NCBI GenBank assembly: GCA_017610175.1
Contig: JAFCCO010000012.1
Coordinates: forward strand, 1 to 47,499
DNA length: 47,499 nt
Reading direction: 5' to 3'
Source of the DNA: Candidatus Iainarchaeum sp.
GTDB taxonomy: Archaea; Iainarchaeota; Iainarchaeia; Iainarchaeales; GCA-2688035
The position numbers and the translations under genes are program-made. Position 1 is the first letter of the stretch. Every line of letters begins with the position of its first letter. Shown piece by piece: positions 2,542-47,499 of this stretch. The notes under the pieces were generated by a model. That model did no database searches, was not told the origin of the DNA, and worked only from the letters and a program-made list of their open reading frames with translations.

Positions 2542-3822
2542 GTGAAAGTTATGCTTGAGATGGATGATTCTTTTGAAATCCCCCCTGAGTACCGGGCAAT
2601 CTTTAATGAAGCAGTCAAACCAAAACTCGAATCAGGAGGCAGTGTAAACATTTTCTTTTCCTCAAATTTCTTTAATTTTAATTATTATTACCTTAGCCAG
2701 TTCCTGTTTCTTTCTAAACTTGCAAGATCAGACAATGTCCGCTTTTACATTACGCTGGCAGACACTGTTTTGTTTGCTAAAAAACATGTTCATTTTTCTT
2801 CACCAATGGCGTCCCGGAAAGAAGTAGTAATTCAGGAGAATCTAGACAAAATGAAGGACATTTTGATCTCTTTTGGGATAAAAGAAAAGAACCTTTTTGT
2901 TGTGAGAGCATCAGAGGCATGGCTAAAATTCCTTAAGCTGGATGAACAAAAAATCATGGAATTTTATAAAGCACTCAGCCTTTTTCCAAACAATGCATTA
3001 AACATTCCGGACTGGTGGATCAAAAGATATTATGTTCCCAAAAAGACACATTTTTCTCTTGCTTATGTGATACAAAAGTATATTGATCTATTTACCTGTA
3101 AATATTTTAGCCAGATTTACCCTGCAGAGATTGAAGGGAAAATTGATATTTTTATAAGCGGCAACGCAGGAAGCCGGCTTCTTTTAGTAGCAAAGAACAC
3201 TATGGATGATGAAAAAATAACCTCTAAGGATCTTCCCGTTCTTGTAATGAGAGGCATCCCCTGCTTTGGCCATACTGCTTTGGTGAACGAAAAGTTCTGC
3301 ATGCCTTCAATCGAAATGAATCTGCAGGAAATTTACTCGGTGATAAAAAAGTACAAAGTTTCAACAAAACACATTAACTTACTGTTCGACGTACTTCTAA
3401 ACAAAGTCCTTGATGAGTTTGTAGAATTCGATGATTGGCACCGTGCAAAAAAAACAAATGTACCTCCAAAACTTTCAAAACAGCAACTCAAAGACCAACG
3501 CATGCTTCTGGCATACAACTTAAAACTTTACTTGGAAAATATCAAAAAAGGGATTCATAAAAGAGAGCAGGTTCAGTATTATTCGATTAGCAAAACAGAT
3601 GAAATAATAGAAGTCAACAAAATTCTTAGAAGCCGTCTTGCATTGGACATTCTTCGCCTTGCAAACGGCACAAATTCCCTGACAGAAATTTCAAAGAATC
3701 TTGACAAACACATTTCTAATGTCAGCGCGGTTGTTTCAAAACTAAAGGAAAGGGGATTTGTTTCAAGTAACAAAGAAGGTAAACTGGTTAGAACAATTAA
3801 ATCTCTTAAAATAAGTTTTTAG
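2542..3822 (+). CDS. Degenerate TyrRS-like (HUP fold) domain fused to a winged helix
   Basis: This 426-residue protein starts with GTG 2542 (or ATG 2551), almost on the predicted transcription start, so it is probably leaderless. Residues ~35-290 follow the layout of an archaeal tyrosyl-tRNA synthetase core: a strand then a helix where HIGH would be (40-60, NIFFSS through LSQFLFLSKL), RFYITLADTVLFAK (68-80) like the conserved LADxHA strand, ENLDKMKDILISFGI (99-113) like the following helix, ISGNAGSRLLLVAKN (205-219) like the GGxDQR region, and NEKFCMPS (249-256) where KMSKS would be. Neither ATP-binding signature is intact. Residues ~360-420 form a winged helix (LTEISKNLDKHISNVSAVVSKLKERGFV). 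Inference: a former synthetase fold reused as a ligand sensor for a DNA-binding domain. The synthetase match is by eye and could be wrong; the HTH is more certain. Confidence 0.45.
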   Translation: MKVMLEMDDSFEIPPEYRAIFNEAVKPKLESGGSVNIFFSSNFFNFNYYYLSQFLFLSKLARSDNVRFYITLADTVLFAKKHVHFSSPMASRKEVVIQENLDKMKDILISFGIKEKNLFVVRASEAWLKFLKLDEQKIMEFYKALSLFPNNALNIPDWWIKRYYVPKKTHFSLAYVIQKYIDLFTCKYFSQIYPAEIEGKIDIFISGNAGSRLLLVAKNTMDDEKITSKDLPVLVMRGIPCFGHTALVNEKFCMPSIEMNLQEIYSVIKKYKVSTKHINLLFDVLLNKVLDEFVEFDDWHRAKKTNVPPKLSKQQLKDQRMLLAYNLKLYLENIKKGIHKREQVQYYSISKTDEIIEVNKILRSRLALDILRLANGTNSLTEISKNLDKHISNVSAVVSKLKERGFVSSNKEGKLVRTIKSLKISF

Positions 3823-5703: not shown

Positions 5704-6744
5704 ATGAGAAAGACTAGTGTTGGGATTTTGGGCGCAACAGGAACTGTTGGGCAAAGATTCATTCAGCTAATGGAGGGGCATCCTTGGTTTAAGGTAACAG
5801 CCCTTGGCGCAAGCGAGAGAAGCGCGGGAAAGTCATACAAAGAGGCCGTTGCAGGGAGATGGAAGCTTAGCGCCGACATTCCGGAGTATGCAAGGGATAT
5901 GCAGGTTGAGGAATGCAAGTCCGGAATGGACTGCGACCTTGTTTTTGGTGCTTTGGACAGCAGTGTTGCAGGGCCGATTGAAACCGAGTTTGCAGAGGAA
6001 GGCTACTTTGTTGTGAGCAACAGCAAAAACCACCGGTTTGACAAAAACGTTCCGCTGATGAGCGCGGAAGTTAATCCAGAGCACCTTGCTTTGCTTGAAA
6101 GGCAAAAGACCAGGGGAAAAATTATTACAAACAGCAACTGCACAATTATGGGAATCACAATTACGTTCAAGGCGTTGATGGACGCATTCGGGTTGGAGCA
6201 GGCGGCAGTTTTTAGCATGCAGGCAATAAGCGGAGCGGGCTATCCAGGAATTCCAAGCCTGGACATCCTTGGAAACGTTGTTCCATTTATTTCCGGAGAG
6301 GAGGAAAAAACCGAGACAGAGCCATTGAAGATTCTTGGAAAGCTAACCGAGAACGGAATTGAGAACGCAGACATTAAGATTACCGCGCACTGCAACCGTG
6401 TTCCGGTTACAGACGGGCACACAGTGTGCGTTTCTGTTAAACTAAGGGATGAAGCAACCGTTGAGGAAATTACCAGAACAATGTCCCGCTTTAAGGGGGA
6501 ACCTCAGAAGCTCAACCTTCCAAGCGCACCAAAGAAGGCAATTGTTGTAAGGAAAGAGCCTGACAGGCCGCAGGCAAGACTTGACCTGATGACAGGCAGG
6601 GGAATGACAACAACAGTTGGGCGAATAAGGGAAGACAACTTGCTTGATTTCAAGTACGCAACCCTAAGCCACAATACAATGCGCGGGGCGGCCGGGGCTG
6701 CTTTGCTCAACGCAGAACTGATTAAGGCAAAAGGGCTTATTTAA
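5704..6744 (+). CDS. asd: Aspartate-semialdehyde dehydrogenase
   Basis: It reduces L-aspartyl-4-phosphate to aspartate semialdehyde with NADPH, the branch point to threonine, methionine and lysine. The N-terminal Rossmann motif is GILGATGTVGQ (7-17). The active-site Cys146 sits in SNCT, and the acid/base pair is Arg232/His239 in NRVPVTDGH. The length (~346) is normal for the archaeal/fungal type, and the sequence is of that type rather than the E. coli type. I prefer the ATG at 5704; GTG 5695 is an alternative. It ends tail to tail with the MFS-like gene with overlapping stop codons. Malonyl-CoA reductases are related, but nothing here favours that role. metX (34818-35960) uses the downstream product homoserine. 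Confidence 0.92.
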   Translation: MRKTSVGILGATGTVGQRFIQLMEGHPWFKVTALGASERSAGKSYKEAVAGRWKLSADIPEYARDMQVEECKSGMDCDLVFGALDSSVAGPIETEFAEEGYFVVSNSKNHRFDKNVPLMSAEVNPEHLALLERQKTRGKIITNSNCTIMGITITFKALMDAFGLEQAAVFSMQAISGAGYPGIPSLDILGNVVPFISGEEEKTETEPLKILGKLTENGIENADIKITAHCNRVPVTDGHTVCVSVKLRDEATVEEITRTMSRFKGEPQKLNLPSAPKKAIVVRKEPDRPQARLDLMTGRGMTTTVGRIREDNLLDFKYATLSHNTMRGAAGAALLNAELIKAKGLI

Positions 6745-7313
6745 GCAATTGGCTTTGCAGTCTGGGCTGCGAATTTTTTCAGGTAAAGGGATACCGCTAC
6801 AGCCCCAAGGGACAGAACAAACATTGCGGCAAACAAGGTGCGAAAGCCGTAAACCGATGCAATGAAACCGCCTGCAAGCGCGGCTATTCCCGTAAAAATA
6901 AATGCTGTGCTTTCCCAAAGGCCCCACTCCATTACAAACTTTCCCCTGTCAAGAAGCCTGCTGTAAAGCCCGTCAAAGGCAGGGTTTGTTATCGCCGTGC
7001 TTATTCCAAAAACAATCTGCACAATAAAAAGATGAACCGGCGTTTCAACAAATAGCAGGCCAAGGAATCCAAGACTTGCAAGCGCGTAACCCATCACAAC
7101 CAAATTTTCCTGGTGCTTTACGCTGTTCTCCCATTTTGAGATAAAGAAAATGAGTATTCCGGCGGCGATGCTGAATGCAGCGTAGGCTTCCCCCGCGACA
7201 AGCAAATCCCCCCCAATTTCCTCAACAAAAACGGCGTAGAGTGGGACAAACATTCCGGCTGCAAGGCTTGAAAAAGCAGATACCACCAGGAGAACTTTTA
7301 GTGCCTTGTTCAT
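6741..7313 (-). CDS. Six-helix, half-length MFS transporter-like protein
   Basis: The 190 residues form about six membrane helices and match the N-terminal half of major facilitator proteins: a long first helix followed by FVPLYAVFVEEIGG, a short basic loop (KWENSVKHQEN) at the place of the loop between helices 2 and 3, and a gap after helix 6 with a basic tail. Ordinary MFS proteins have 12 helices and about 400 residues. The gene has a clean start and stop and ends against asd, so the second half is not next to it. It either works as a dimer of halves or is a truncated remnant. It follows the ZIP-like gene by 10 bases, so the two form an operon. The substrate is unknown. Confidence 0.65.
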   Translation of the reverse strand: MNKALKVLLVVSAFSSLAAGMFVPLYAVFVEEIGGDLLVAGEAYAAFSIAAGILIFFISKWENSVKHQENLVVMGYALASLGFLGLLFVETPVHLFIVQIVFGISTAITNPAFDGLYSRLLDRGKFVMEWGLWESTAFIFTGIAALAGGFIASVYGFRTLFAAMFVLSLGAVAVSLYLKKFAAQTAKPIA

Positions 7314-8071: not shown

Positions 8072-9034
8072 ATGAGTTCGCTTACTTTAGACTTGCACAC
8101 TCATCTTTTGGAAAAGGATGTAAAACCGCATGTTTACTGGAGGGCAGTAAAGAAACGCGGCCTTGATGCGGTTGCAATAACCGAACACATTGAGGAAACA
8201 CCTGGGCTTGCATATGCCTTGCTTGCGGAGAAAAAGCCAAGCAATGTGCTGCTTTTGCCGGGAATGGAGCTTAACACAAACATAGGGCACGTTGTTGCAA
8301 TAGGGGCGTCCCCTGAAATTTATTCAATCGGCAAGTTTTTGCAAAAAGGGCTTGACATTAAAAAAGCAATCAAGCTTGCCGAAAGCAATGATGTTTTGCT
8401 AAGCATTGCCCACCCCTGGGGATTCGGGCACGACAGCGCAGCACACATTATGGGGGAGGCAAGGCTGCAGAAACTTGTTGAAAACAACTGCATCGGGGTT
8501 GAGGCGTTTAACGGAATGATTGGAAGCGTTGGAAACTTTGTTTACGCAACAAACTGGGTTAAAAGGCCGCTGAACTTCTTTGACTTTTTGGAGAAAAACA
8601 GGATTGCGAGAAAAACAAGGCTTGACCGCATTGGAACAAGGCTAAAAAAGCAGCTTGATGAAAGAAGCAGGGACGTTTTGGAAAGGTGCGCAAAACCGAT
8701 TGAGCTTGGAAAGGACGCATGCTTTATTACCGCAGGGAGTGATGCACACTATTCAAGGCGAATTGGAACCGGAGTGCTTAAGCTGAAAAGCCGTTCAAAA
8801 AAGCTTGACAATAAAAAGGCCATAAAGGCCATTAAGGAAAAGGAAAGGGTTGTTTGGGCAGGCCCGTTTGTAAGTGAGTTGCCGAACGGAAAATACAGGG
8901 TTGAGACTGCGACACCGGACCGGAAAGAAATTATTGAGGGGCTAAAGTACGCAACCATTTCAAAGGGCAGGGCAAAAATCGGAAGCATTGGCTCCAAAAT
9001 TAAGAACAGAATTAAGAGGAAGGGAAGCAATTGA
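8072..9034 (+). CDS. PHP-domain metal-dependent phosphoesterase
   Basis: Starts at ATG 8072 behind a TATA-like CTTAAAAAC about 30 bases upstream. The PHP signature LDLHTHLL is at residues 6-13, with AVAITEH and PGMELNT (second and third metal sites), IAHPWG and finally GSDAH near residue 225. These supply the His/Asp ligands of a trinuclear metal centre. PHP proteins hydrolyse phosphoesters, for example histidinol phosphate or short RNA and pAp. An insertion of basic helices (RKTRLDRIGTRLKKQ) and a very basic C-terminus (KIKNRIKRKG) suggest a nucleic acid substrate, but that is inference. Its stop overlaps the next gene's TTG by TTGA, so the two are translationally coupled. Confidence 0.8.
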   Translation: MSSLTLDLHTHLLEKDVKPHVYWRAVKKRGLDAVAITEHIEETPGLAYALLAEKKPSNVLLLPGMELNTNIGHVVAIGASPEIYSIGKFLQKGLDIKKAIKLAESNDVLLSIAHPWGFGHDSAAHIMGEARLQKLVENNCIGVEAFNGMIGSVGNFVYATNWVKRPLNFFDFLEKNRIARKTRLDRIGTRLKKQLDERSRDVLERCAKPIELGKDACFITAGSDAHYSRRIGTGVLKLKSRSKKLDNKKAIKAIKEKERVVWAGPFVSELPNGKYRVETATPDRKEIIEGLKYATISKGRAKIGSIGSKIKNRIKRKGSN

Positions 9035-9441
9035 AAATTGCCGTTTACCCTGAAACAAACATTTCAAAATTGCCGCTGGACACCGACGCAATTCATCTTG
9101 TAAGGCCTGTTGCAAAAAAAAAGCTTGAAAAGATTCTTGCAAGATGCAGGGGCTGCAATGAAATCAGCCTGAGCAAAAGCTGCATGCAAAGGCTTCCACT
9201 GAAAACGAGAAAATTTCTTGAGAAAGCAAAAGTAAGGCTTGTGCTGGAGTCAAGAAGGGGGCGGGCAATTGGAATCTCGCTTGAAAAAATGCTTAAGGCA
9301 ATTGAGCTTAGAAAGGACTACCAAAGCCTTCGCGAAATTGAAAAGCTTACCGATATCCCAAAAAGCACGGTTCACTATCTTTTGAAGTATGCAGACCGGA
9401 CGAAGATTAAAAACGGAAAGAACACCGTTTATTTGAAGTGA
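9031..9441 (+). CDS. DUF1699-like protein with C-terminal HTH
   Basis: A 136-residue basic protein starting with TTG inside the TGA of the PHP gene. Residues ~18-60 (DAIHLVRPVAKKKLEKILARC) resemble the archaeal DUF1699 family, which has HLA.RP followed by a helix. Residues ~85-130 contain a helix-turn-helix-like stretch (YQSLREIEKLTDIPKSTVHYLLKYADR) as in resolvase-type or sigma-like HTH domains. Nucleic acid binding is likely; the target is unknown. It lies between the PHP gene and the Zn-ribbon gene with overlaps at both ends, so the three probably act together. Confidence 0.5.
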   Translation: MKIAVYPETNISKLPLDTDAIHLVRPVAKKKLEKILARCRGCNEISLSKSCMQRLPLKTRKFLEKAKVRLVLESRRGRAIGISLEKMLKAIELRKDYQSLREIEKLTDIPKSTVHYLLKYADRTKIKNGKNTVYLK

Positions 9442-9770
9442 TGCAAATGGGAAAGCTTTTTGAGGAAACAATTGTAAACCTGACAAGAAAAGGGGCCGCT
9501 GAAAAGGTGAACTTTCTCAAAAGCCTGAGGAAAAAGATAATGCCATCGCAGCTTAAGAAAATCCAGCAGAACGACAAATCGGTTCTGCGGGAACTGTTTC
9601 TTCCAAAATGGGTTTCATGGGAACTTCTAAGCGATTGGGCGGCGGACTTCAAAGAACAGGGTGAGGGAAGGGAATGCATTCTCTGCGGAAAAAAGGCTGC
9701 TGTTGGCATTGACTTCAACGAAAAGTTTATCTGCGAAACCTGTTTCTTAAAGCTAAAGAACCACGTCTGA
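9441..9770 (+). CDS. Small helical protein with a C-terminal zinc ribbon
   Basis: About 109 residues from the ATG at 9441, whose A is the last base of the preceding stop codon; GTG 9438 is possible. The N-terminal 70 residues are helical and basic (LTRKGAAEKVNFLKSLRKKI). The C-terminus has a CILCGKKAA..CETC zinc-binding pair typical of a treble clef or zinc ribbon. No family recognised. Third gene of the PHP operon, so a role with nucleic acid or RNA metabolism is an inference from context. Confidence 0.7.
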   Translation: MQMGKLFEETIVNLTRKGAAEKVNFLKSLRKKIMPSQLKKIQQNDKSVLRELFLPKWVSWELLSDWAADFKEQGEGRECILCGKKAAVGIDFNEKFICETCFLKLKNHV

Positions 9771-9790: not shown

Positions 9791-9858
9791 TATTTAAATG
9801 ATAAACAGCTTTAACTAAACAGAAAAGCGCACCTATGCGCAAGACAGAAACGGAGGGT
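9791..9858 (+). promoter_or_regulatory. Promoter and structured leader of the Cys-rich repeat gene
   Basis: TATTTAAATG (9791-9800) is a good TATA box. The leader contains a perfect hairpin GCGCA-CCTA-TGCGC (9827-9840), followed by the ribosome binding site GGAGGG (9852-9857) nine bases before ATG 9867. The hairpin could mark or protect the mRNA 5' end. Confidence 0.6.
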
Positions 9859-9866
9859 AAAAAATA

Positions 9867-11570
9867 ATGGATAAGAGAATTGCCATAGTTGCATTGTTCA
9901 GTGTTTTATTTATTGCATTTGCTATTGCGCAGGATGGGGCAACGGGAGAAAACGTTGTTTCAATGAGAACAACAGACTCAAATGAGACAGTAACAGACTC
10001 CAATGCCGTGATAACTATTCCAAAAGACGGCTACTGCAGGCTTGGATGCCCAAGCGAAGCGGAGCTTGACAAACAAATAAGGGAATGCAAGCTCAACGGA
10101 GGAGAATACAAGATTGGAGCAGACAGGTGTGGCTGCAGATATGTTACATGCGTAAACACACTTCAGTGCCCCAGCGGCGAAGAACTGGAAAAAAAGATAG
10201 CCAGGTGCAGGGAAGAAGGCAGTGGTTATGAAACATACATGACAAGAACGGGCTGCAAAGACGTTAGGTGTGTTAGCCAAACAACAACCTGCCCCACAAG
10301 GGAAGAAAATGACAAGAAAATCGAAGCCTGCAAGGAAGAAAACCTTAACTACAGGTTCTTTGTTGAGAACGGATGCGAGTATGTGAGATGCATCGAAATT
10401 CCAAGGGAAGAGTGCCCAACTGAAGAGAACATAAGCCTCTCAATTGAAAGATGCAGGTCACAAAACCTTAATTACAGGTTCTTTGCGGACGCAACAGGAT
10501 GCAGACAGGTTAAATGCATCGACACAATCTGTCCGGGCGATGAAGAGCTTGGAAGGCAAATTGCAAAGTGCAGAGCACAGGGCGGGGACTACCAGAAATA
10601 TATGGACCGCTCAGGCTGTACCCAAATCAGCTGCGTTGAAACAGGAATTGTGTGCCCTGACGAGCGCGCAATAGACAGCCAAATAATGGCTTGTAAAAAC
10701 AGGCAACTGGACTACAGCACATACGAAGACGAAAGAGGATGCAAACAGGTTCGCTGTATTGAACCAACAGTAACAGAAATTGTTGAATGCAAAAAATATG
10801 TAGAGGACGGATGTGTAATAATTTCATGCACAGACGGGTACAGATTCAACTCCTGCAGGCTCCAGAACATATGCCCGGTTGTTGAATGCAAGACTTTCAG
10901 GGACGACGAAGGATGTGTTGTAAGGAGATGCACCGATGGGTCTGAAAGCAGGGACTGCCCAACAACAGGATCTGTTGAATGCAAGGTATACAAAAGGGAG
11001 GACGGCTGTGAAGTGAAAACTTGCACAGACGGAACCGAACTTGTATCCTGCCCGGCAGACGATGTTGAGTGCAAAAAATATGAAACAGAAGACGGATGCA
11101 TTGTAAAGGAATGCACTGACGGCACAAAGGACAGGGTTTGCCCGGACAGTTCACAGGACGTAGAGTGCAAAGTGTTCGAGGATGAGGAAGGATGCATGGT
11201 TAAAACATGCACCAATGGATACGAAGCACGGGAATGTGAGAGCGAGGATCAAATTTGCGAAGTGGAGTTTGACCCGGAAACCGGATGCACAATCCAAAAA
11301 TGTGAGGACGGACGCGTTACAAGAGAATGCCGTAACCAGGAAACCGTTGAATGCAAAAAATATGAGACACCCGATGGATGCACAGTAAAGGTGTGCACGG
11401 ATGGCTACGAAGAAAGGGAATGTGAGAGAGAGCCGTTCAGAGGCCTTGCTGAGGCACTTGAGGGAAAGTCACTGAAGGAAGCTATGGCAATGGGCGGAGC
11501 GGCAACTCCCCCTGAGAGAGAGCCTCCAAAGAACTTCATTGAAGCGTTCTTCCGAATGTTCGGTGGATAG
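9867..11570 (+). CDS. Secreted protein of two Cys-rich repeat families
   Basis: 567 residues with a signal peptide (MDKRIAIVAL..AIAQ). Six A repeats of ~40 residues occupy 61-297: CP, eleven residues, C, then an aromatic-rich stretch ([DEN]Y..[FY]), GC and [VI][RK]C, four Cys each. Seven B repeats of ~30 residues occupy 308-519: VECKxY..DGC.V..CTDG....C, also four Cys each; the sixth is divergent. Even Cys spacing points to two disulfides per repeat, as in small extracellular repeats, though no named family was recognised. The tail (521-567) is not Cys-rich and has an amphipathic end (FIEAFFRMFGG) without a true membrane anchor. Likely a secreted adhesive or structural protein. It is monocistronic, ending in a hairpin plus T-tract. 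Confidence 0.85.
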   Translation: MDKRIAIVALFSVLFIAFAIAQDGATGENVVSMRTTDSNETVTDSNAVITIPKDGYCRLGCPSEAELDKQIRECKLNGGEYKIGADRCGCRYVTCVNTLQCPSGEELEKKIARCREEGSGYETYMTRTGCKDVRCVSQTTTCPTREENDKKIEACKEENLNYRFFVENGCEYVRCIEIPREECPTEENISLSIERCRSQNLNYRFFADATGCRQVKCIDTICPGDEELGRQIAKCRAQGGDYQKYMDRSGCTQISCVETGIVCPDERAIDSQIMACKNRQLDYSTYEDERGCKQVRCIEPTVTEIVECKKYVEDGCVIISCTDGYRFNSCRLQNICPVVECKTFRDDEGCVVRRCTDGSESRDCPTTGSVECKVYKREDGCEVKTCTDGTELVSCPADDVECKKYETEDGCIVKECTDGTKDRVCPDSSQDVECKVFEDEEGCMVKTCTNGYEARECESEDQICEVEFDPETGCTIQKCEDGRVTRECRNQETVECKKYETPDGCTVKVCTDGYEERECEREPFRGLAEALEGKSLKEAMAMGGAATPPEREPPKNFIEAFFRMFGG

Positions 11571-44074: not shown

Positions 44075-46003
44075 ATGGATGTTAAATTTGAAATTGTAAT
44101 TACATTGCTTGCCGTTGCATCACTATTTGCACTGGCAGGGCTGGTTCAGCAGGAACCAATAGCCACTCCAATGGAGTTCAAGGAAATTCCGCGCTTTGAA
44201 AGCTACGATGCTTTGGAAGCGGCTTTTGCTAAAGCAAGGGATAGCGGAAGAGGATACGGAATATTTGAGGACTCAATCCTAACGACTACCGCAGCCCAAA
44301 AAAGTGCCGCTCCGGCTGCAGAAGCAGGCGGGCTTAACGGAGCAACCGACTACTCCAAAACCAACGTACAGGTTGAGGGAGTGGACGAAGCAGACATTGT
44401 GAAAACAGACGGAAAGTACATCTATGCATTCTCCAAAAACAAGCTGATAATAACAGACGCCTACCCAATTGAGTCGGCGGCAATAATCTCAAAGACAGAG
44501 CTTGAAAACACTTCCCCGATTGAAATGTTCATCGAGGGAAACAAGCTGCTTGTATTCGGAAACAAAAGAATAGATTATGAGGCAACACCCACCAGGCCGG
44601 AAATCGGAATGGCAGAAAGCATGATTGCACCATACCCCTACTACGGTAGCCGCATTGCAGTTCAGCTCTACAACATTTCAGACCCGACAAGCCCAGTTCT
44701 TGAAAAAGAAATCGAGTTTGAGGGAAACTACCTAACATCAAGGTTGATTGGAAGCAACGCATACTTTGTTGTAAACGCCTGGCCGCGATACGAAGTTTGC
44801 AAGGGAAACGAACCATGCCTAATCCCCCTAATGATTGAGGACGGGGTGGAAAGATTGATTGCAGAGCCAACAGACATAGGATACCTGCCGCCAATGCCGG
44901 TGGAAAGCTTTGTGACAATCGCCTCCATAAACCTTGAGTCAAAGGAACTGCAGAAGGAAACAATCGCAGGAAGCGCCAACAGCGTTTTTGCCTCAGCAGA
45001 CAACATATACCTTGCAGGCACAAACTGGAGCTTTCCGGAGATCCCGGTCATAAGGGAACCCGCGAGAATGATTATGGGCGACTTTGAGTCCACAGTAGTA
45101 AACAAATTCGGCCTCGACAAAGGAGAGATTGGATTCCTTGGGCAAGGAAGCGTTCCGGGACACATCCTGAACCAGTTTTCAATGGACGAATTTGAAGGCA
45201 ACTTCAGGATTGCGACAACAATTGGACGGAACGGTTCAAACAGCGTCTACGTCCTGAACAAGGAAATGGAATCAATTGGCAGCCTGGAAAACATTGCACC
45301 GGGCGAGAGCATCTTCTCCGCCAGGTTTATGGGCGCAAAGGCATACCTGGTTACGTTCAGAAAAACAGACCCCCTGTTTGTCATAGACCTTTCAGAGCCG
45401 GCAAACCCAAAAGTGCTTGGAAAATTGAAAATTCCGGGCTACTCGGATTACCTGCATCCAATTGATGAGACACACCTCATCGGCCTTGGAAAGGAAGCAG
45501 TAGAAGCGGCAAAAGGAGACTTTGCATGGTATCAGGGGCTGAAGCTGGCAATCTTCGACGTAAGCGACGTGGAAAACCCGATTGAAATGCACACCATTGA
45601 AATCGGAGACCGCGGAACAGAGAGTTACGCACTGAGGGACCACAAGGCATTCCTCTTTGACAGGGAAAAAGAACTTCTTGTGATTCCCATCACCCTTGCG
45701 GAGATTCCGGAAGAGCAGAAAAAGCCTTTGGATGAAGAACAGCAGTGGCCAAGCTACGGCGAATACACCTTCCAGGGAGCGTTCGTTTTCAACGTAACGC
45801 TTGAAAACGGCTTCACAGAAAGGGGAAGGATTACGCACGCCACAGCAGAGGACGAGCTAAAGAGAGGCTACTACTACGGCGGGAGCTACAGTGTGAAAAG
45901 GGCACTCTACATTGGAGACGTTCTCTACACACTCTCTGAAACTGCTTTGAAGGCAAACAGCCTTTCAACACTTGAGGAACTGAAGCGGTTTGCTTTTGAG
46001 TAA
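44075..46003 (+). CDS. Secreted beta-propeller domain protein
   Basis: 642 residues with an N-terminal hydrophobic segment (FEIVITLLAVASLFALAGLV) as a signal peptide or anchor. YSKTNVQVEGVDEADIVKTDGKYIYAFSKNKLIITDAYP is the strong start of the family of archaeal/bacterial secreted beta-propellers (PF09826 type). Further blades include NEPCLIPLMI with a Cys pair, and FVTIASINLESKEL. No active-site motif. Function unknown; probably binds a surface component. Expressed as a single gene with its own TATA box. Confidence 0.88.
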   Translation: MDVKFEIVITLLAVASLFALAGLVQQEPIATPMEFKEIPRFESYDALEAAFAKARDSGRGYGIFEDSILTTTAAQKSAAPAAEAGGLNGATDYSKTNVQVEGVDEADIVKTDGKYIYAFSKNKLIITDAYPIESAAIISKTELENTSPIEMFIEGNKLLVFGNKRIDYEATPTRPEIGMAESMIAPYPYYGSRIAVQLYNISDPTSPVLEKEIEFEGNYLTSRLIGSNAYFVVNAWPRYEVCKGNEPCLIPLMIEDGVERLIAEPTDIGYLPPMPVESFVTIASINLESKELQKETIAGSANSVFASADNIYLAGTNWSFPEIPVIREPARMIMGDFESTVVNKFGLDKGEIGFLGQGSVPGHILNQFSMDEFEGNFRIATTIGRNGSNSVYVLNKEMESIGSLENIAPGESIFSARFMGAKAYLVTFRKTDPLFVIDLSEPANPKVLGKLKIPGYSDYLHPIDETHLIGLGKEAVEAAKGDFAWYQGLKLAIFDVSDVENPIEMHTIEIGDRGTESYALRDHKAFLFDREKELLVIPITLAEIPEEQKKPLDEEQQWPSYGEYTFQGAFVFNVTLENGFTERGRITHATAEDELKRGYYYGGSYSVKRALYIGDVLYTLSETALKANSLSTLEELKRFAFE

Positions 46004-46080: not shown

Positions 46081-47499
46081 ATGAAACGCGGTTTTACACT
46101 TAAAATTGCATTAATTGCAGCACTTTTCCTAGCCATGCTCACGCAGGTTTACGCCCCATCTTGGACAACAACAACCGCAACAGACTTCAACTCAGGCACA
46201 GGCTACGATTTGAATTATGTTAAGGTTCTTGCGGACGGAACGGTAATGCCAAGCGGTGAAATCCAAATCCCAAGTGCAGATTTGCCTGCAGGCGGGCTAA
46301 TTGGATATTGGAAACTTAACACAAACTCAGGGGCAGTGGCAGTTGACTCAAGCAGGCAGGGAAACAACGGAACCTGGACAAACGGAGCGGACAACAACAG
46401 CTTATGGTTCTTCGACCAGAATGCGGGGTTCTTTGACGGGGTTGATGATTATGTTGATATTAGCAGAAACACCTTACTAGAGCCTACAAGCACAATAAGT
46501 ATTGCTTTCTGGTTCAAAACAAGCCAAAATAATTTTCCAATCGTAAGCGCAGGATCAAGTGGATCAGGGGATGGAGCCAACCAAGGATATAGAATGGTGT
46601 TGGAAAGCACTACAGGCATTCATTTTGATATAGGAAACGGATCAAGCAATGACAGTATTAGAACTTCACTAGGAATGGATGACGGGCAATGGCACCAGGT
46701 TGTAGGAATTTATGATGACAGTACTAACAGATGGGAACTCTGGTTAGATGGAAATAAAGACACAGCAGTAACAGCAGACACAATAGGGGCTATTTCATAT
46801 GACGAAGTAAGCGGTTTGAATATAGGAAGAAAAAGCGCAGGAGTTTATTATCAAGGCCAGCTCGCTGAAGCCAAAATCTTCAACCGCGCGCTCAACGCGG
46901 AAGAAATCGCAAACGAGTACGCCCGCAACCTCGACGGAAACGGGCTTGTTGCATACTACAACTTCAACGATACAAACTCAAGCGGGAACGGAGTTTGGAA
47001 CCAGGTTAGCGAATACGTTATTGGCAGTGACGTTCTTTTGAGTGATGACACCACCGAAGATACGGGAGTAGATACCCTTAACACTTACCAAAAACTTAAG
47101 GAATTCACAATAACCCAGCCGATTAAATCCGGAACCACGCTGCGCACAACCTTCGGCCTTGCCTTAACAATTAGTACAGGCTGTTTTGCCTATGGAAAAA
47201 TTTACCGAAACGGGGCAGCAGTCGGAACAGAACAATCCGTAGAAAGCAGTGACTACTTCACATTTTCAGAAGACATCACAGGCTGGAGCAAAGGAGACAC
47301 AGTAGAACTCTGGGTTAAGGAAAACTGCGGATACCCTTTAGCTCTTCCAACCGCAAAAAACTTCAGAGTGCTTGGAAACATGAGCGAATCAGGCTCGCTT
47401 GTAAACGGCGCAGACATCAACGCATACGGGATGTGGGACTCGAATGCGGGATTCTTTGATGGAGTGGACGACAAAATGCTTATTGCGTCAAACGCAGTC
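46081..47499 (+). CDS. Secreted multi-LamG protein (cut by window edge)
   Basis: 473 residues are visible without a stop. Signal peptide MKRGFTLKIALIAALFLAMLTQVYA. A LamG/concanavalin-like domain lies at ~75-280: GLIGYWKLN, DSSRQGNNGTW, FFDGVDDYVDI, STISIAFWFKT, GQWHQVVGIYD, NRWELWLDG, GQLAEAKIFNRALNAEEI. It is followed by a second YYNFND start, a beta-rich part and then another NAGFFDGVDD repeat at the window end. Such proteins are often long surface proteins that bind sugars. The DNA of the repeats at 46378-46455 and 47398-47475 is similar, showing recent duplication. Confidence 0.88.
   Translation, partial: MKRGFTLKIALIAALFLAMLTQVYAPSWTTTTATDFNSGTGYDLNYVKVLADGTVMPSGEIQIPSADLPAGGLIGYWKLNTNSGAVAVDSSRQGNNGTWTNGADNNSLWFFDQNAGFFDGVDDYVDISRNTLLEPTSTISIAFWFKTSQNNFPIVSAGSSGSGDGANQGYRMVLESTTGIHFDIGNGSSNDSIRTSLGMDDGQWHQVVGIYDDSTNRWELWLDGNKDTAVTADTIGAISYDEVSGLNIGRKSAGVYYQGQLAEAKIFNRALNAEEIANEYARNLDGNGLVAYYNFNDTNSSGNGVWNQVSEYVIGSDVLLSDDTTEDTGVDTLNTYQKLKEFTITQPIKSGTTLRTTFGLALTISTGCFAYGKIYRNGAAVGTEQSVESSDYFTFSEDITGWSKGDTVELWVKENCGYPLALPTAKNFRVLGNMSESGSLVNGADINAYGMWDSNAGFFDGVDDKMLIASNAV

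Follow-up and report, generated by a model that had tools for sequence, protein, structure and literature searches.

The window, meaning the whole analysed stretch of 47,499 nucleotides, encodes a cysteine-rich protein of 567 amino acids built from two families of four-cysteine repeats, A and B. Judged by sequence and by predicted fold, these are two new repeat families with no known relative, within an already known class, the secreted cysteine-rich repeat proteins. As for its role, we tentatively favour, at somewhat under an even chance, a tethered, disulfide-locked extracellular spacer or coat of 13 beads, which would present a Kazal domain in some relatives and would likely protect the cell surface.

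Repeat architecture and predicted structure

The protein contains 55 cysteines (9.7 %) and has a pI of 4.6. The features of the gene and of its upstream region are as follows.

9793..9799, + strand: TATA-like box TTTAAAT, predicted from sequence
9827..9840, + strand: leader hairpin GCGCA-CCTA-TGCGC, 5-bp stem, -7.3 kcal/mol, z -1.20, not significant
9852..9857, + strand: Shine-Dalgarno-like GGAGGG, from sequence
9867..11570, + strand: gene of the 567-aa cysteine-rich repeat protein, an open reading frame with ATG start and homologs
9867..9929, + strand: signal peptide (MDKR-IAIVALFSVLFIAFAIA), predicted from sequence; family members start likewise
9930..10034, + strand: linker at the site of the Kazal domain of two orthologs (L015/L033 and L018/L037), no Kazal match here
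10035..10151, + strand: A repeat 1, spanning C61-C95, plus the additional C57 and C88
10167..10271, + strand: A repeat 2
10290..10391, + strand: A repeat 3
10413..10517, + strand: A repeat 4
10530..10634, + strand: A repeat 5, helix and two-stranded hairpin in the model
10653..10757, + strand: A repeat 6, helix and two-stranded hairpin in the model
10788..10856, + strand: B repeat 1, one loop residue fewer than in most
10872..10874, + strand: Cys336, invariant odd cysteine between B1 and B2 (7/7 family members), candidate for an inter-chain disulfide
10887..10958, + strand: B repeat 2, modelled as a three-stranded sheet
10980..11051, + strand: B repeat 3
11070..11141, + strand: B repeat 4
11166..11237, + strand: B repeat 5
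11256..11330, + strand: B repeat 6
11352..11423, + strand: B repeat 7
11532..11567, + strand: hydrophobic/amphipathic C-terminal tail NFIEAFFRMFGG; a like tail in 6/6 complete family members

The six A repeats follow the pattern CP-x12-C-x15-GC-x4-C (consensus CPxxxxLxxxIxxCKxxGLxYxxYxDxxGCKxVxC), with first cysteines at residues 61, 101, 142, 183, 222 and 263. They form one block, followed consecutively by the block of seven B repeats, C-x8-GC-x4-C-x8-C (consensus VECKxYxxExGCxVKxCTDGxExxxCP), which begin at cysteines 308, 341, 372, 402, 434, 464 and 496; each of the 13 repeats has four cysteines. The mature sequence contains 13 GC-x4-C motifs; in 2000 shuffles of the same composition, such motifs averaged 0.41 and never exceeded 4. 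For the full B motif, the count was seven against at most one in such shuffles. The repeat counts and coordinates given in an earlier note, made from the sequence alone, are correct, and the motif numbers lie far above those of the shuffles. The fixed cysteine spacing that it described holds for most repeats, but A1 carries two additional cysteines (57 and 88), a loop lacks one residue in both A3 and B1, B6 has one residue more, and Cys336 is an additional cysteine between B1 and B2. The signal-peptide-like start and the putative disulfides of the 13 repeats agree with the secreted, disulfide-rich protein that had been proposed.

Neither A nor B gave a significant match in Pfam (searched with the whole protein and with pieces), NCBIfam or the PDB sequences, and single repeats did not match antistasin, pacifastin or VWC in HMM searches up to an E value of 10. 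The profile search of PDB returned no matches for the B repeat and only unrelated ones for the A repeat, and Foldseek searches of PDB with two models showed no significant fold match for either. That the earlier note could match neither repeat to a known family thus holds for Pfam, NCBIfam and PDB. No known domain accounts for the two repeats, although one such domain, Kazal, is present in two orthologs. The window protein showed neither a lectin, Ig-like or coiled-coil part nor any binding or fibre domain of Pfam or NCBIfam. Among viral models, the best Foldseek E value was 1.8e-5, to repetitive phage proteins with TM-scores of at most 0.20, and these matches were discarded as generic. A viral or plasmid origin was also rejected, as there was no relative among viral contigs or plasmids.

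The AlphaFold2 model of the stretch A5-A6-B1-B2-B3-B4 (33 rows) had a mean pLDDT of 91.4 and a pTM of 0.37. In this model, the A unit starts with a helix and continues as a two-stranded hairpin, and B is a three-stranded meander. Prediction of the two adjacent repeats A5-A6 alone, a check that the earlier note had proposed, returned the same elements with a pLDDT of 82.6. Because the high pLDDT is accompanied by a low pTM, the repeats are modelled as confident small beads whose mutual orientation is left undefined, and not as a rigid fibre. For both repeats, the order of helix and strands suggests that C1 pairs with C3 and C2 with C4. A hairpin core of 14 columns is common to the two (hhalign P 8e-5), and therefore A and B may be related in part. 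The helix surface is the most variable part, with a mean identity of 0.34, compared to 0.52 for loops and 0.57 for strands, and no loop is hypervariable, which argues mildly against A and B being canonical inhibitors.

Regarding the leader, the hairpin noted earlier (GCGCA/TGCGC) does exist, but its stability was reached in 21 of 200 shuffles and its sequence is not common to the homolog leaders. We therefore rejected it as a regulatory element, its fold energy being within the shuffle range.

Distribution, genomic site and conserved features

The window comes from a Candidatus Diapherotrites MAG of 1.24 Mb, 90 % complete. Homologs were found with an alignment query; a scan of the genome contigs with the single protein had returned none. 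Most of the named homologs come from Candidatus Diapherotrites MAGs and place the genome there, in agreement with the archaeal, DPANN-type host suggested earlier. Within the phylum, the family profile matched 8 of 87 genomes (seven full members and one distant A-only protein); in a wider set it matched 10 of 389 genomes, where G388 is the only match outside the phylum.

The flanking genes are well conserved within the taxonomic family of the window genome. The repeat gene is directly preceded (window 9031-9770) by two genes, one DUF1699-like and including a helix-turn-helix part, the other small and zinc-ribbon/Gin-like; the DUF1699-like gene is retained in 15 of the 18 genomes of this taxonomic family. 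The repeat gene sits downstream of the same gene set in its own genome, G003 and G011. All three have the DUF1699-like gene there, and the own genome and G003 also have the small zinc-ribbon gene. At the other sites read in this taxonomic family, including that of G007, which belongs to the same genus as G011, there is no repeat gene. As it is missing at a conserved site in close relatives, the gene is accessory. Four further genomes (G006, G031, G036 and G039) have it in other surroundings. Across families, B1-B3, A5 and A6 mostly find their best match in their own counterparts. This position-specific conservation indicates that the array is old and fixed, and that it does not expand by recent duplication.

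The number of cysteines after the start codon is odd in all six complete members (55, 57, 55, 53, 53 and 43); in the remaining one, L034, 52 were counted and one was presumably lost at the contig end. An equivalent of Cys336 is found between B1 and B2 in 7/7 members. As the repeats have four cysteines each, it is the natural unpaired cysteine, and two chains may be covalently joined through it. The short hydrophobic/amphipathic tail that ends all six complete members (other examples are NILEALVKFLTGQ and IIEEIMNFLTGK) is a plausible membrane contact or tether. We considered the tail as a general sorting signal and kept it as a family feature only, since the other exported proteins read in the window and at L107, a further locus of the same genome, end differently.

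Thioredoxin_4 proteins were found in five of the seven carriers, the own genome not being one of them. In this MAG, which is 90 % complete, searches returned neither VKOR nor a Thioredoxin_4/DsbA match, only Thioredoxin_3 matches, which counts to some degree against the oxidative folding that we propose. In G039, genes for membrane-anchored thioredoxin-type, DsbA-like and glutaredoxin proteins lie within ~10 kb of the homolog (L016:11659-18317). A search of all seven carriers for subtilisin-type (S8) proteases gave none, so that an endogenous target of the S8 class is absent, which speaks against the favoured reading.

Elsewhere in the window we noted two surface-protein candidates: an exported-type protein with a strong Beta_propel match (44075-46003; PF09826, E 2e-161) and, after it, an ORF with a Laminin_G_3 domain (46081-47499; E 1.2e-20). 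A 190-aa ORF at 6741-7313 aligns with positions 1-172 of 347 of the MFS transporter family PF07690, its first half alone, and, judged by this alignment, is a truncated or split transporter.

Kazal domains in the same module set

In two orthologs, L015/L033 (G003) and L018/L037 (G006), a Kazal domain is placed between the signal peptide and the first A repeat, with matches above the curated cut-off (PF00050, E 3.8e-8; PF07648, E 2.8e-10). Scans of the segment alone gave 33.6 bits for L015/L033 and 40.6 bits for L018/L037, and the genome search agreed; the latter domain is close to leech-derived tryptase inhibitor (E 8e-14). Known Kazal domains have six cysteines, paired C1-C5, C2-C4 and C3-C6. 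All six are present in L037, and L033 lacks C1 and C5, a double loss compatible with the Kazal fold, in which these two form a pair. The window protein matched neither PF00050 nor PF07648, at full length or with the N-terminal segment alone, and has instead the linker with the lone extra Cys57. As five of the seven family members, the window protein included, lack the domain, Kazal is not the core function.

The hmmscan of whole proteins, probably owing to the composition-bias filter of HMMER, overlooked the clear Kazal domains in L015:7980-9707 and L018:2471-4075, which the segment scan recovered. Automatic annotation may overlook Kazal domains in Cys-rich archaeal proteins.

Of the 87 genomes of Diapherotrites, 23 were found to encode Kazal domains, frequently as part of large proteins of secreted type. 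The one Kazal protein detected in the own genome is encoded at L107 (G000:C24, ORF frame starting at 3684) and is of secreted type, with 1236 residues; its long repetitive body and C-terminal 'WNLFS(I/L)PG' region are common to proteins of G007, G008, G010, G014, G019 and G034. One protein, L112, combines a Kazal domain with a B repeat, the latter at 18.5 bits compared to a shuffle maximum of 7.4. Large Cys-rich proteins with A repeats are encoded in G023 (27.8 bits), G046 (27.7 bits) and, with a weaker match, G388 (12.0 bits), where shuffles reached at most 6.1. From these co-occurrences, A, B and Kazal seem to be parts of a single set of extracellular modules.

Very large secreted-type proteins with 62-114 cysteines and A-like repeats are encoded at L021:3750-7397, L085:5027-8101 and L086:4734-7439. 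They have a common helical region and a C-terminal Cys domain, and Pfam gave nothing convincing for these proteins; a similar helical region is found in L112.

Kazal domains have already been reported in archaea, in a sponge-associated thaumarchaeon (arCOG10350; PMC6697440). A literature search for Diapherotrites together with Kazal found no paper.

Possible roles and comparison with known systems

According to the reading that we favour, the protein would be exported by Sec, as its signal-peptide-like N-terminus suggests, and its 13 mini-domains would be locked by the disulfides C1-C3 and C2-C4. The conserved tail would tether the chain to the membrane and Cys336 could join two chains. The product would be a tough, protease-resistant extracellular spacer or coat protecting the surface of a small cell, with a Kazal-type serine-protease inhibitor presented at the free end in some relatives. 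The protective, anti-protease side of this proposal comes from the association with Kazal; as the window protein has no such domain, it would be at most the spacer or coat part, unless A and B themselves bind something. That A and B match no inhibitor family counts against the anti-protease account.

If the beads themselves were active, each A and/or B repeat could be an inhibitor of antistasin-, pacifastin- or VWC-like build, strung together as are the Kazal, antistasin or pacifastin units of animal proteins. The physical linkage to Kazal in the two orthologs and in L112, the resemblance of the spacing and build of B to pacifastin and to VWC subdomain 1, and the hairpin common to A and B all speak for such a multi-headed inhibitor. 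We nevertheless regard it as rather unlikely, given that A and B found no match to these families or in PDB by sequence or fold, and that the helix surface varies most while no loop is hypervariable. A bolder version, in which A and B are new disulfide-locked inhibitor or trap folds and the A/B/Kazal chains a combinatorial, modular, membrane-tethered anti-protease coat, seems to us unlikely; such a coat would be comparable to animal multi-domain inhibitors but would have evolved in archaea. A purely structural component of the cell envelope, with neither binding nor inhibitory activity, would explain the fixed repeat order, the conserved tail and the lack of a variable loop, but an accessory gene, missing in most relatives including a genome of the same genus as a carrier, is not an essential part of the envelope, and we consider this role unlikely.

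The surface fibre or adhesin contacting a host or partner cell, which the earlier note suggested, is unlikely in our view. A secreted multi-domain chain of a DPANN archaeon, possibly dimeric and with a membrane tail, would suit it, as would the occurrence of A repeats in large secreted proteins with many cysteines, but we found nothing specific to it: the window protein has no known binding domain, its array shows neither expansion nor diversification, its beads are not modelled as a rigid fibre, and the gene is patchily distributed and missing at the same site in close relatives. Host contact is further weakened by genome analyses suggesting that some Diapherotrites may live independently (PMC6349945, PMC8561730). 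A metal- or redox-buffering protein, metallothionein-like or a thiol store, could be imagined from the 55 cysteines, the acidic composition and the own genome lacking VKOR and Thioredoxin_4 matches. The cysteines, however, stand at fixed positions in units predicted to fold as alpha-beta-beta or three strands and not in CxC/CxxC clusters, and the signal peptide and the Kazal fusion point to an extracellular disulfide context, which makes buffering very improbable.

The family indicates that archaea assemble extended extracellular chains, apparently linked by disulfides, out of exchangeable modules, Kazal domains being part of the same toolkit, and this makes a testable claim on possible surface protection in tiny uncultured archaea. 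The A and B mini-domains are also candidates for stable scaffolds.

Among known systems, B resembles pacifastin and VWC subdomain 1 in its spacing C-x8-C-x4-C-x8-C and its three strands, minus the third disulfide, and the likeness to pacifastin, VWC and antistasin extends to the short beta-sheet unit and the GC-x4-C hairpin. These families are marked by at least three disulfides and a CxC/CxxC core, whereas A and B have four cysteines, thus one disulfide fewer, and a GC-x4-C without the middle cysteine; they gave no HMM or PDB match, and A begins with a helix. From Kazal inhibitors, whose domain is present in two orthologs, A and B differ by having four cysteines in another spacing and no Kazal match. 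The wider frame is the broadly defined class of SCREPs (PMC6262176), exported proteins with at least two repeated disulfide-rich domains per chain, including 'combinatorial' arrays, Kazal among them. The window protein, with its predicted secretion and putative disulfides, belongs to this class by that definition. The discussion of SCREPs is centred on known eukaryotic toxin and inhibitor domains (PMC6262176), while here the repeats are unmatched and the carrier is an archaeon.
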